Source: Rhizomonospora bruguierae (GTDB taxonomy: Bacteria > Actinomycetota > Actinomycetes > Mycobacteriales > Micromonosporaceae). From it: DNA of 64,000 nucleotides. The notes below the pieces were generated by a model. That model was not told the DNA's origin. It was given only the letters and a program-made list of their open reading frames with translations, and made no database searches. The DNA is taken from positions 135,948-199,947 of the forward strand of contig NZ_BBQH01000017.1 of NCBI RefSeq assembly GCF_018397995.1. Direction: 5' to 3'. This document shows, piece after piece, positions 1 to 13,156 of this stretch (its first letter is position 1; every line of letters begins with the position of its first letter). Both the position numbers and the translations under genes were made by a program.

Positions 1-2524
1 CACCATCCGGGCCCTGGCCGAGCTGGTGGAGACCCCGGTCGAGCAGCGCGGCCCGCGCCGGCTGCTGCACGAGCTGACCAAGCCGTCGGGGCAGCGCGTC
101 GGCACCCTCGTCTGCGTTCCGTACGGCGGCGGCAGCGCGGTGGTGTACCAGCCGCTGGCCGATGCGCTGCAGCCCGGGTGGTCCCTCTACGCCCTGTCGA
201 TCCCCGGTCAGGACGTCGGGGTGCAGGAGCAGGCGCTGCCCTTCGACGAGCTGGCCGCCCGGTGCGCGGCCGAGGTGCTCGACCGGGTGGACGGCCCACT
301 CGTCCTCTATGGGCACTGCGTCGGCTCCGCGCTGCTCGTCGAGGTCGCCCGCCGGCTTGAGGCGGCCGGCCGGACGATCGACGCGGTCTACCTGGGCGCC
401 ACCTTCCCCTTCGCCCGGCCGACCGGGCGGGCGATGGTGCTGCTGTCCAAACTGGCCCGCCGCGACCGGCTGCGCGGCAACCGGGGCTACGAGAACTGGC
501 TGCGCTCGATGGGCGTGGACCTGGCCGAGCTGGACCCGGCCGAGGCGAACGCGATCGTGCGGACGATGCGGCAGCAGGCCGTGGCGGCCGAGGAGTACTT
601 CACCGGGCTGTTCGCCGAGCAGGTGGAGCCGCTGCGGGCGCCGGTGGTCTCCGTGGTGGGGGAGCGGGACTCCGAGACCGAGTTCTACCGCGAGCGCTAC
701 CGCGAGTGGCACTTCCTCGCCCGGCAGGCCGCGCTGGTCGTGCTCGACGAGGGCGGGCACTACTTCCTGAAGTATCGGGCGGCCGAGCTGGCCGAGATCG
801 TGACCTCGGTGCACCGGACGGACGAGGCGCTCGCGGACCGCGACGGCGGGTGGTCGGTGCTCGCCCGGTCCACCATAGACCCGGCCGAGGCGCAGGGCCG
901 CCCCGCCGCGATGGACCCGGCCGAGGCGCAGAGCCAGCCCACCGCGATTGACTCCGCCGAGGCACAGGGCCGGCCCACGGCGATGGATCCGGCCGAGGCG
1001 CAGGGACCACCGACCGCGGACCCGAAACGAACCACCGCCGGTCCGGACCGGTCCCGGGCGCGGGCCGGTGCGACGGTGCCCCAGCCGAGCATGCGCCGCT
1101 TCCTGCTGGTGGCCTTCGGGCAACTGACCTCCATGATGGGTTCGGCGCTCACCGAGTTCGCCATCCCACTGTGGATATACATGCAGACCGGCTCGATCGT
1201 CCGGTTCGCCGTCTTCGCCGTGCTCGGACTGGTACCGGGCATGCTGGTCGCCCCGATCGCCGGCGCGGTGGTCGACCGGTACGACCGGCGCCGGGTGATG
1301 CTGTTCGGTGACATCGCGGCCGGCGGCAGCCAGGCGGTGCTGCTCGGCATCGTGCTGACCGGGCACCTCGCGGTCGGCCACATCTACGTCCTGCTGGTCG
1401 CGCTGTCGGTGTCGCTGACCTTCCAGCGGCTGGCGTACAACGCGGCGGTCCCGCAGTTGGTGCCCAAGCGGTACCTCGGCCACGCCAACGGCGTGGTGCA
1501 GATGACCCAGGGCGCCGGGCAGTTCGTCGTCCCGATCATCGCCGCCGGCCTGATGGCCGCGGTCGGCCTGCGCGGCGTGCTGGTGCTGGACGTGGCGAGC
1601 TACCTGTTCGCGACCACCGTGACCCTGCTGGTCCGGTTCCCCAACACGATGCCGTGGCGGCGCCGCGAACCGTTCCTCACCGAGGTCGCCGGCGGCTGGC
1701 GGTACGCGCTGGGCGACAGCGGCCTGCGGCCGGTGCTGATCTTCTTCGCGGTGCTCAACCTGTTCATGACGGCGCTGTTCCTGCTCGTCTCGCCGCTGGT
1801 GCTCTCCTTCGCGGATCTCAACGCGGTCGCCCGCGTCAGCATGGCGACCGGGCTCGGCGGGATCGTCGCCGGGCTGCTGATGAGCCTGTGGGGCGGGCCC
1901 CGGATCCGCCGCGTGCGCGGCATGCTCTGGGCGGTCCTGGTGCTCGCGGTCTCCAGCGCGGTGCCGGGCCTGCGGGCCAACGAGGCGGTGGTGGCGGTCG
2001 GCGCGTTCGGCATGTTCTTCGGGCTGACCCTGGCGAATGGGATCTACGCCACCGTGGTCCAGGTGAAGGTGCCGCAGCGCTTCCACGCCCGGGTGTTCGC
2101 GGTCAACACGGTCATCGCGTTCTCCACGATCCCGATCGGGTACGCGGTGGTGGCCCCGCTGGGCAGCCGGGTCTTCGAACCGCTGCTGGCCCCGGGCGGA
2201 GCGCTCGCCGGCACGGTCGGCGCGGTCATCGGCACCGGCCCGGGTCGCGGTACCGCGCTGCTCTTCCTGGTCCTGTCCGCCGTCATGGTGATCCAGGTGC
2301 TGATCAGCCTGCGGCTGCCGAACCTGGTGCGCTTCGACGAGCGGGTGCCCGACGCGATGCCTGACGACCTGGTCGGCGCCCGGGCGCGCGAGGCGAAGGT
2401 GCGGCGGCGACGCGCGGCCGCGGACCCGGCGGCGCCCGCGGACCCGGCGGCGCCCGCGAACCGGGTCGCGCCGGTGGGAACGGCGGCGCGACCGGTGGTC
2501 ACATCCGGCGAGAAGGAAAGGTGA
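1..2524 (+). CDS. NRPS C-terminal end: carrier tail, thioesterase, MFS transporter fusion (5' partial)
   Basis: The frame is open from base 2, and its first residues (TIRALAELVE) look like the last helix of a peptidyl carrier domain, so this is the 3' end of a larger NRPS gene. Next comes an alpha/beta-hydrolase thioesterase (about bases 90-800). Its nucleophile motif reads GHCVG, so the usual Ser is Cys (codon 317-319). The Asp lies in GERDSE and the His in GGHYF. A linker of four 12-residue repeats (875-1018) leads to about 12 membrane segments of an MFS permease starting near RRFLLVAFGQ (1092). The MFS signature DRYDRRR follows segment 2. The thioesterase would release the peptide and the permease would export it; this is inferred. 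The stop overlaps the MbtH start. A GTG at 26 could start a separate protein, but it lies inside the carrier-like stretch and has no ribosome site. Confidence 0.85.
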   Translation, partial: TIRALAELVETPVEQRGPRRLLHELTKPSGQRVGTLVCVPYGGGSAVVYQPLADALQPGWSLYALSIPGQDVGVQEQALPFDELAARCAAEVLDRVDGPLVLYGHCVGSALLVEVARRLEAAGRTIDAVYLGATFPFARPTGRAMVLLSKLARRDRLRGNRGYENWLRSMGVDLAELDPAEANAIVRTMRQQAVAAEEYFTGLFAEQVEPLRAPVVSVVGERDSETEFYRERYREWHFLARQAALVVLDEGGHYFLKYRAAELAEIVTSVHRTDEALADRDGGWSVLARSTIDPAEAQGRPAAMDPAEAQSQPTAIDSAEAQGRPTAMDPAEAQGPPTADPKRTTAGPDRSRARAGATVPQPSMRRFLLVAFGQLTSMMGSALTEFAIPLWIYMQTGSIVRFAVFAVLGLVPGMLVAPIAGAVVDRYDRRRVMLFGDIAAGGSQAVLLGIVLTGHLAVGHIYVLLVALSVSLTFQRLAYNAAVPQLVPKRYLGHANGVVQMTQGAGQFVVPIIAAGLMAAVGLRGVLVLDVASYLFATTVTLLVRFPNTMPWRRREPFLTEVAGGWRYALGDSGLRPVLIFFAVLNLFMTALFLLVSPLVLSFADLNAVARVSMATGLGGIVAGLLMSLWGGPRIRRVRGMLWAVLVLAVSSAVPGLRANEAVVAVGAFGMFFGLTLANGIYATVVQVKVPQRFHARVFAVNTVIAFSTIPIGYAVVAPLGSRVFEPLLAPGGALAGTVGAVIGTGPGRGTALLFLVLSAVMVIQVLISLRLPNLVRFDERVPDAMPDDLVGARAREAKVRRRRAAADPAAPADPAAPANRVAPVGTAARPVVTSGEKER
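875..1018 (+). repeat. Four tandem 36-bp in-frame repeats in the TE-MFS linker
   Basis: Four consecutive 36-base units (875-910, 911-946, 947-982, 983-1018) encode variants of a 12-residue unit close to MDPAEAQGRPTA. They join the thioesterase to the first membrane segment of the transporter and probably form a flexible tether. The units differ by several substitutions each, so the expansion is not recent. Confidence 0.9.
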
Positions 2525-10589: not shown

Positions 10590-11897
10590 TCAGACCGCCT
10601 TGGCCAGGGCGTCGGCGACGGCGACCCGGGTGGGATCGGGGTCGGCCCAACTCCAGTTCGGGTGGGCGCGGTTCGTGAGCAGGGCCAGCACGAGCCTCCG
10701 CCCGGGATCCACCACCAGCGTGGTTCCGGTGAAGCCGGTGTGACCGAAGGTGCCCGGCGACGACAGGCGACCCATGAACCACGGCTGGTTGAGGACCACA
10801 CCGAGGCCGTGCGCCGAGGTGCGGGTGGGGTGGTCCGGGTCGATGGCGGGCTTGCCGGCGTTGGCGTTGACGAGCATCTTCCGGACGGTGGCGGCTTCGA
10901 GGACGCGCGTGCCGCCGTAGGTGCCGGCGTCGAGCAGCAGCCGGCCGATCGCGGCGACATCGGCGGCGCTGGCGAACACGCCCGCGTGGCCGGCGACGCC
11001 GCCGAGGAGGTTGGCCACGTCGTCGTGCACCACCCCGCGCAGCAGCCCGCGCGACGAGCGGGCGTCGGTGGCGACCAGCCGGGTCTTGCGGTCGCTGGCG
11101 CTCAGCCACGCGTTCGGGGTGAACCCGGTCTCCGTCAGCCCGAGCGGGCCGGTCAGGTTGGACCTGAGCGCCTGGTCGAGGCGCTGCCCGGTGACCTTCT
11201 CCACGATCCTGCCGGCGATCATGAGGCCCACGCTCGAGTACCGGAACGTGGTGCCGGGGGTGGCACCGGCCACGAGCGGGGTGGCCAGGACGGCGTTCCA
11301 CCGCGCGGCCTCGTCCGGCAGCCCGGTGACGGTCGCGCCCACGGGCAGGCCGCTGGTGTGCGTGAGGAGCATCCCGACCGTGACGGCCGCCTTGCCGGCA
11401 CCGGTGAACCCGGGCAGGTACTCGACGACCGGCGCGTCGAGCCGCACCCGCCCCCGCTCGACCTGTTGCAGGAGCAGGATCGCGGTGTAGACCTTGGTCA
11501 CCGACGCCAGGTCGAAGATCGAATCCGGGCGCATGGCGACCCGCTCGCCGAGGGGCAGCAGGGTTGGGCCGGCCCCGTAGCGCAGCGCCTCGCCGACCGC
11601 CACGCGCACGGTCGGCTCACCGTCGACCAGGACCAGCGCGACCGCGCCGGGAAAGCCGTTGTGCCGCAGCGTCTGCGGTGCCGGAACGTACCGCTCGAGA
11701 ACCTGGTGCACGTCAACCGCGTACCGGGCCTGACCGAGGATACGACGCACTGCGAGGCCGGCACCCGGGCTGAAGGACGGCCGCGGCAACGGGCCCGCCG
11801 GGTCCACCGATGCCGGGCCGCCGGCCTTGGCGCAACCGGTGAGCGTGGCGGCGGCGGCCAGGCCGGCGCCGAGCAGGGTACGGCGGGCGACGCGCAT
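10590..11897 (-). CDS. Serine hydrolase lipoprotein, beta-lactamase/esterase (class C) family
   Basis: A 435-residue exported protein. The N-terminus MRVARRTLLGAG has a twin-arginine pattern and a lipobox LTGC at about residue 20, so it is probably a Tat-exported lipoprotein. The penicillin-binding fold follows: the nucleophile motif SVTK (S-x-x-K), a YSS at the position of the YxN motif, and HTGFTG near the C-terminus in place of the KTG triad. Such proteins are D,D-peptidases or esterases; the substrate is not predictable. An in-frame ATG at 11907-11909 gives four more residues. A start at 11897 places the RR motif as expected. Confidence 0.85.
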   Translation of the reverse strand: MRVARRTLLGAGLAAAATLTGCAKAGGPASVDPAGPLPRPSFSPGAGLAVRRILGQARYAVDVHQVLERYVPAPQTLRHNGFPGAVALVLVDGEPTVRVAVGEALRYGAGPTLLPLGERVAMRPDSIFDLASVTKVYTAILLLQQVERGRVRLDAPVVEYLPGFTGAGKAAVTVGMLLTHTSGLPVGATVTGLPDEAARWNAVLATPLVAGATPGTTFRYSSVGLMIAGRIVEKVTGQRLDQALRSNLTGPLGLTETGFTPNAWLSASDRKTRLVATDARSSRGLLRGVVHDDVANLLGGVAGHAGVFASAADVAAIGRLLLDAGTYGGTRVLEAATVRKMLVNANAGKPAIDPDHPTRTSAHGLGVVLNQPWFMGRLSSPGTFGHTGFTGTTLVVDPGRRLVLALLTNRAHPNWSWADPDPTRVAVADALAKAV

Positions 11898-11960
11898 GGC
11901 AGGGATCATCCCCCACGCCGCCCGGTTCGCGCCATCGATGGGCCGTCCACGCCGCACTGG

Positions 11961-12056
11961 TCAGCCGGTGGTCCAGGGCCGGAGTTTGTCGGGGTTGAGG
12001 ACCGCCCAGATGCGCCTGATCCGGTCGCCGGCGATGTCGAACGCGTACACCGTCGT
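11961..12056 (-). pseudogene. C-terminal remnant of an ECF41-type (SigJ-like) sigma factor
   Basis: On the minus strand, 31 codons before the TGA at 11961-11963 read VYAFDIAGDRIRRIWAVLNP and then DKLRPW. This is the characteristic end of the SnoaL-like C-terminal extension of ECF41 sigma factors, which usually finish with a V-x-NPDKL motif. The rest of the gene (sigma regions 2 and 4) is missing: upstream the similarity stops near 12056, where a different gene remnant begins on the other strand. Confidence 0.7.
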
Positions 12057-12058
12057 AC

Positions 12059-12190
12059 GACTACACGGCGCAGTGGCTGAGCGTCCTCGGCCCGGACACG
12101 CCGGTGCTGCGGGTGCCCGGCGACCACTACTCGTTCCTCCAGCCGCCACACGTGCACGACCTGGCCGCGGCGGTGCGCCGGCACCTCTGA
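12059..12190 (+). pseudogene. C-terminal remnant of an NRPS/PKS-type thioesterase
   Basis: Reading from 12059, 43 codons before the TGA at 12188-12190 give DYTAQWLSVLGPDTP, then VLRVPGDHYSFLQPPHVHDL and AAAVRRHL. GDHYSF is the motif around the catalytic His of polyketide/peptide thioesterases, and the rest is the usual last helix. There is no start codon or preceding domain, because the sequence immediately upstream is the oppositely oriented sigma-factor remnant. It is therefore a truncated relic. Confidence 0.7.
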
Positions 12191-12204
12191 CCGAACATTG
12201 TGGA

Positions 12205-12242
12205 CCCTCCCCGGCGCGGCCGTTCGGCCGCGCCGGGGAGGG
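12205..12242 (+). terminator. Very strong hairpin terminator behind the thioesterase remnant
   Basis: A perfect 17-bp stem (CCCTCCCCGGCGCGGCC at 12205-12221 pairing with 12226-12242) and a GTTC tetraloop follow the remnant's stop by 14 bases. It is probably the original terminator of the lost thioesterase gene or operon. Confidence 0.85.
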
Positions 12243-12442
12243 CCTGATCATTGGTCCCGTCGGGCCGGGACCAATGACCCTATGGCGCGGGTCGGTGACC
12301 CGGCAGGCTCACGGCGGGCGACGACTGCGATCCGAGCCCACGGCGGCGTGCGACCCCCCTCGTGGTCGCGGGCCGGGGCCGGCGGCCACATCGGTGCCGG
12401 CCGACCGGTTGCCGGCGGTCCGTGACCAGGAGGAGGCAGCGG

Positions 12443-13156
12443 GTGAGCAAGCGAGTGGCACGCGAGCGAGCCGCGCGGGCGGCGCGCGAACGGATGGCGC
12501 GGCAGCGCCGCCGGCGGCGCACCGTCTGGGGGTCCGTGGCCGCCGTCTCGGCACTGGTCCTGGCCGGGGTGGTGGGCTGGGTGGTGGTCTCCGCCCAGAA
12601 GCCCGCCGACGGCTTCCCGGTGCCGGCCACGGCGACCACCGACCGCACCGGGCTCACCGTCGGCTCGGGCCCCACCAAGGTGGAGATCTACCTGGACTAC
12701 CTGTGCCCGGCGTGCCGGGCCTTCGAGCAGGACGCGGCCGCGACGATCGAGCGGCTCGTGGCCGACCAGCGGATCACCGTGGTGTACCACCCGGTGGCGA
12801 TCCTCGACCGCTACTCGACCAACGGCTACTCGTCCCGCTCGGCCGCCGGCGCCGGCTGCGCGGCCGACGCCGGAAAGCTCTCCGAGTACACCAAGGCCCT
12901 GTACGGCAACCAGCCGGCCGAGGGCGGCGCCGGGCACACCGACGACCAGTTGATCGACCTCGCCGCCGGTGCCGGGGTGCCGCGCGAACCGTTCGGGCAG
13001 TGCCTGCGCGATCGCCGCTACGCCGACTTCGTCGCCGGGGTCACCGACGCGATGGCCGCCCGCGGGGTCAACGGCACCCCGACGGTGTTCGTCAACGGCC
13101 GGCAGCTGCCGAACCCGTCGGCGACGACCCTCGAAGCGGCCGTCCAGCAACCGTGA
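12443..13156 (+). CDS. Membrane-anchored DsbA-family thiol oxidoreductase
   Basis: A 237-residue protein. The basic N-terminus is followed by one helix (about residues 32-53) and an extracytoplasmic thioredoxin-fold domain with the active site YLCPACRAF and the cis-Pro loop NGTPTVFVNG. Two further Cys residues (GAGC and GQC) are present. This is the actinobacterial DSBA-like family that forms or isomerises disulfides outside the membrane. The GTG at 12443 has an AGGAGG site eight bases upstream. It sits 128 bases before narG in the same orientation; whether it serves respiratory proteins is inference. Confidence 0.85.
   Translation: MSKRVARERAARAARERMARQRRRRRTVWGSVAAVSALVLAGVVGWVVVSAQKPADGFPVPATATTDRTGLTVGSGPTKVEIYLDYLCPACRAFEQDAAATIERLVADQRITVVYHPVAILDRYSTNGYSSRSAAGAGCAADAGKLSEYTKALYGNQPAEGGAGHTDDQLIDLAAGAGVPREPFGQCLRDRRYADFVAGVTDAMAARGVNGTPTVFVNGRQLPNPSATTLEAAVQQP

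Follow-up and report, generated by a model that had tools for sequence, protein, structure and literature searches.

A probable deletion scar between the remnants of an ECF41 sigma-factor gene and an NRPS gene in Rhizomonospora bruguierae

How did the last codons of two genes, lying on opposite strands, come to adjoin one another in the genome of Rhizomonospora bruguierae? The locus is situated within a stretch of 64,000 nucleotides analysed as a whole and referred to below as the window; its features are collected in Table 1. The initial annotation, made from the sequence alone, recognized here two unrelated gene remnants, and both are real, relatives identifying them as the tails of an ECF41 sigma factor and of an NRPS thioesterase. 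The two identifications rest on relatives because Pfam does not recognize pieces so short: the sigma-factor fragment alone and the thioesterase fragment alone each gave one match, far below the cut-off. The length of 31 codons first given for the sigma-factor tail on the minus strand is correct, whereas the 43 codons given for the thioesterase tail have to be corrected to 45 plus the stop.

Table 1. Coordinates of the features at the scar, numbered from the first nucleotide of the window.
Feature	Position	Strand	Details
3' remnant of an ECF41-type sigma-factor gene	11961-12056	minus	31 codons and stop; NPDKL motif present
Probable deletion join	12052-12055	none	GTCG agrees with either parent gene; putative microhomology, up to ~4 bp
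3' remnant, thioesterase domain of a C-A-PCP-TE-type NRPS	12053-12190	plus	45 codons and stop
Strong GC-rich hairpin	12202-12244	plus	downstream of the thioesterase stop; no T-run; possible terminator

The sigma-factor tail, TTVYAFDIAGDRIRRIWAVLNPDKLRPWTTG followed by the stop, is read in a frame with a GC content of 0.97 at third codon positions. At 13 relative loci it aligns with the end of ~300-residue sigma factors, with 64-87% amino-acid identity, and at the DNA level, in the search of family genomes, it matches G148 with 88% identity over 95 bases (E 2.1e-28). The ECF41 group of sigma factors is described in PMC3426412, and NPDKL and YVGPWLPEP are named among its motifs in PMC7730460. 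Like the members of this group the tail carries the distal NPDKL motif and aligns to the C-termini of the sigma factors of relatives; unlike them it consists of 31 codons without sigma regions or linker motif, and is not a working sigma factor. Sigma region 2, sigma region 4, and the greater part of the C-terminal extension are missing from it; the WLPEP-type sigma2-sigma4 linker motif, which in the relatives reads YVGEWIPEP or similar and is accompanied by a distal motif of the NPEKL/NPDKL type, is gone with the front half. In an intact relative, the L177 protein, both sigma regions are found by Pfam (PF04542, PF08281). With a 303-residue sigma factor as the query, a near-full match was obtained at 23 of 25 distinct relative loci, the 23 including the source of the query itself and the 25 being the strongest or hand-picked matches, i.e., a non-random sample. 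In this comparison the first 51 residues are missing in G035, and G306 retains the last 39 alone, while a 26th locus, in G260, matched the query weakly. In G306 the last ~39 ECF41 codons (L180:5420-5542) lie close after a frame read from its translation as a putative metallopeptidase; this front-less tail is an independent remnant, and such tails thus do survive decay. A search of the window for an ECF41-type promoter (TGTCACA-CGTC) gave 0 matches, with 0.31 expected by chance.

The thioesterase tail, SYDYTAQWLSVLGPDTPVLRVPGDHYSFLQPPHVHDLAAAVRRHL followed by the stop, has a third-position GC content of 0.98. Apart from the genome under study, its best protein relative is found in G113 (64% identity over all 45 residues, E 6.8e-14) and the best DNA relative in G276 (78% over 135 bases, E 4.0e-24); 12 of 250 family genomes, including the own one, match the tail at E <= 1e-4. 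The counterpart in G113 is the extreme C-terminus of a condensation-adenylation-carrier-thioesterase (C-A-PCP-TE) protein of 1,359 residues, and the NRPS loci of G203, G193, G217, and G276 encode proteins 71-85% identical to it. The tail shows homology to NRPS thioesterases at their C-terminal end, GDHYSF included, and resembles the NRPS thioesterase domain (Pfam PF00975) in aligning to the last residues of the G113 protein; it differs from that domain in that the remaining part of it, and all domains upstream, are missing. No NRPS frame closing with a whole thioesterase domain exists here, the open frame being of 56 codons with no in-frame start before the tail. The gene that left this tail is an NRPS gene, not a PKS gene. 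Relatives have counterparts of both genes, i.e., the near-full sigma factors and the 1,359-residue NRPS of G113. The meeting of the remnants is not "tail to head", as it was described there: a broken front meets a broken front, and the tails are kept in both genes.

The hairpin that follows the thioesterase stop had been taken for a strong terminator retained by the gene. The structure is indeed very stable, the segment 12190-12250 folding with -48.3 kcal/mol (z -7.25), and since no T-run follows it, its reading as a terminator is plausible at most. Behind it lies a second inverted repeat (window 12248-12277, CATTGGTCCC ... GGGACCAATG; -21.2 kcal/mol, z -2.23), which overlaps an OsdR-like site. 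This candidate site, CGGGACCAATGACCCT (window 12266-12281), is located about 175 bases before a dsbA-like gene, upstream of presumed nitrate reductase genes, and resembles AGGGACCTTCGGCCCC, which PMC5069765 gives as a predicted OsdR site ahead of narG2 in Streptomyces coelicolor; it is one of three plus-strand matches in the window to a loose pattern of two forms. The dsbA-like gene itself (window 12443-13156, plus strand) is divergent, its matches at 19 relative loci being 43-58% identical. The gene after it is presumably a nitrate reductase gene, as judged from its translation; no narG was found beside the dsbA-like matches at the 19 relative loci, within flanks of ~1.5 kb.

The two remnants were said to touch within a few bases, which is the case: the sigma-factor and thioesterase homologies meet within four bases, at ~12052-12055, and there is no filler between them. 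A query of 240 bases spanning the join was compared with 354 family genomes, two candidates being scored per genome, and at least 150 of the genomes, including the own one, match it at E <= 1e-4. Among the matches listed, most of the strong sigma-factor matches stop at query positions 84-96 (window 12044-12056), and it is at position 92 (window 12052) that G276, G113, G203, and G193 begin to match on the thioesterase side. Nine of the listed matches extend beyond position 96, those from G030, G035, G073, G115, G150, G164, G304, and G372 reaching 101-106 and that from G260 reaching 146; all nine hold gaps, as the query and genome lengths differ in each, and the G260 match, the sole one inspected, is a gapped alignment of 72% identity. 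Apart from the own genome, no match listed from the 354 family genomes contains the join ungapped. No shift in base composition occurs at the join. The GTCG shared by both parent genes is present in all five NRPS relatives; on the sigma-factor side it occurs in G148 and at none of the 13 loci compared, three of which have GTC. A short microhomology at the join is therefore possible, and is weak evidence because the tetranucleotide is constant in the NRPS relatives and found in few sigma-factor relatives; by a rough, uncalculated estimate, the chance of a four-base overlap for a random join at this GC content is ~3%. A palindrome of 10 bp located at the join, GTCGTACGAC, was rejected as a recombination site, since the same ten bases are present in four of the five NRPS relatives, the fifth having GTCGGACGAC in this position, and since the window contains 164 palindromes of this size or larger.

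The best explanation of the scar, with a probability of roughly 0.8, is one past deletion that joined the ends of the ECF41 sigma-factor gene and the NRPS gene. The broken end of either gene is turned towards the join, as expected from one deletion. Such a deletion would have removed everything between the C-terminal parts of the ECF41 gene, on the minus strand, and of the NRPS gene, on the plus strand; the joining would probably have proceeded by end joining, with a microhomology of a few bases at most, and the remaining tails would be non-functional pseudogene ends. If the genes were of the same size as in the relatives, ~273 sigma-factor codons and 1,313 NRPS codons would have been lost, and the deletion would have comprised at least ~4.8 kb plus any DNA between the genes. 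A Ku protein is encoded in the own genome (C56, E 1e-53). Scars of genome rearrangements generated by end joining and illegitimate recombination are described for Streptomyces in PMC5869714, and the present one is similar in that unrelated sequences are joined with a loss of DNA; in the Streptomyces work, as presented there, breaks were induced and followed, whereas here the event is deduced from the sequence alone.

A single event, end joining, and an ancestral order of the sigma-factor gene followed by the NRPS gene are thus what we infer. The order can only be inferred because the partner gene is absent from the stretch compared at 18 sigma-factor loci and five NRPS loci, and because neither tail is found near the beta-lactamase relatives at 39 named loci, a search from which the records closest to the own genome may have been missing. 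None of the loci compared showed the ancestral order; the 60 relatives compared include none of the same genus. A distant ECF41-like gene (37%) is present at two of the 39 beta-lactamase loci. At one of them, in Plantactinospora endophytica (L130:8125-9039), it stops ~1 kb short of the beta-lactamase relative, with which it shares the strand, a placement that parallels the own locus with its sigma-factor tail before the beta-lactamase gene. This locus was rejected as the ancestral state because the encoded protein has a C-terminus without NPDKL and with no match to the tail; it is still the nearest arrangement seen.

The initial annotation spoke of a deletion or inversion end-point, and it is the first part of this proposal that is supported, inversion being unsupported. 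An inversion or translocation, by which the front halves would have been moved and not lost, is quite improbable: the opposite strands of the remnants could result from an inversion join, but an inversion would keep both front halves, and no front half of the expected identity was found in the own genome, a draft assembly of 182 contigs that is 98.2% complete. The sigma-factor query gave ten matches in it, four of them full-length paralogues (38-46%) and five partial (27-48%), and at 72% the tail itself and no other. The NRPS query gave 33 matches, the tail itself being alone at 56%, in an alignment that begins ten residues before the thioesterase tail, inside the sigma-factor remnant, and all others falling at 27-44%. 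The failure to find either front half elsewhere in this draft favours deletion over inversion; with 182 contigs, DNA missing from the assembly could contain these halves.

The same draft state of the assembly makes a chimera conceivable, i.e., a join of two unrelated loci produced by the assembler, which would also agree with the lack of an ungapped join among the matches listed from the 354 family genomes, own one aside. This is very improbable. Assembly chimeras usually form at repeats. Among the 40 scored of 545 first-look candidates, the region 11600-12500 of the window has eight matches in the own genome, one being the window itself and the other seven lying at 11777-11900, within the beta-lactamase gene, or in the hairpin; none of these seven overlaps the join, which makes misassembly less likely. 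Moreover, the join is located ~148 kb into a contig of 205,909 bases, and a chimera would leave the front halves elsewhere in the assembly, where they were not found. Least probable of all is an origin in several steps, whether by separate truncations later brought together or by a segment inserted into the NRPS gene and then lost, since, even if the front-less ECF41 tail of G306 shows one such decay, the two homologies abut here, within four bases and with nothing inserted between them, and neither front half was found.

With deletion as the preferred reading, the surroundings of the scar bear on what may have been lost. The scar is flanked by a gene of the beta-lactamase family on the left and by the DsbA-like gene on the right. 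On the plus strand, the frame at window 2-2524 encodes an entire thioesterase domain and, behind it, an MFS transporter, and appears to belong to a frame of 4,671 codons with NRPS modules in the genome; it represents a fusion of NRPS and transporter, unless a separate start for the transporter lies within the frame. It is followed by genes for a carrier protein, a glycosyltransferase, and the E1 and E2 subunits of a dehydrogenase, up to 7497, and then by a gene for a TetR regulator on the opposite strand. The NRPS-cluster genes, which may form one working cluster, thus extend from the left edge of the window to ~4.5 kb before the scar. The left-edge NRPS frame was dismissed as a candidate for the lost front of the thioesterase remnant, as it has its own complete thioesterase and runs on into the MFS transporter. 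The initial suggestion that a polyketide or peptide cluster was once here is therefore to be narrowed: a further NRPS gene was lost, it was not a PKS gene, and NRPS genes such as the frame ending at 2524 remain beside the scar, so that "once here" fits a further NRPS gene and not a whole cluster. The own genome encodes a counterpart of the ornithine monooxygenase of the G113 NRPS cluster on other contigs only (three matches, the best of 50% on C45), which hence gives no sign of the lost cluster. It is unlikely that the deletion trimmed a longer peptide-antibiotic region. Such a region would have held a second NRPS gene with its own sigma-factor regulator, to the right of the present NRPS cluster, which ends at ~7.5 kb, and to the left of the dsbA-nitrate reductase genes; the loss of the two would have ended the synthesis of one product.

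The scar between the two pseudogene tails is real but ordinary genome decay, with no wider consequence seen. It is the trace of one gene-loss event on the edge of an actinomycete NRPS region, and for annotators it means that no genes are to be called at this place. Should the intact arrangement come to light in a sister species, the scar could serve to polarize the loss of the cluster.
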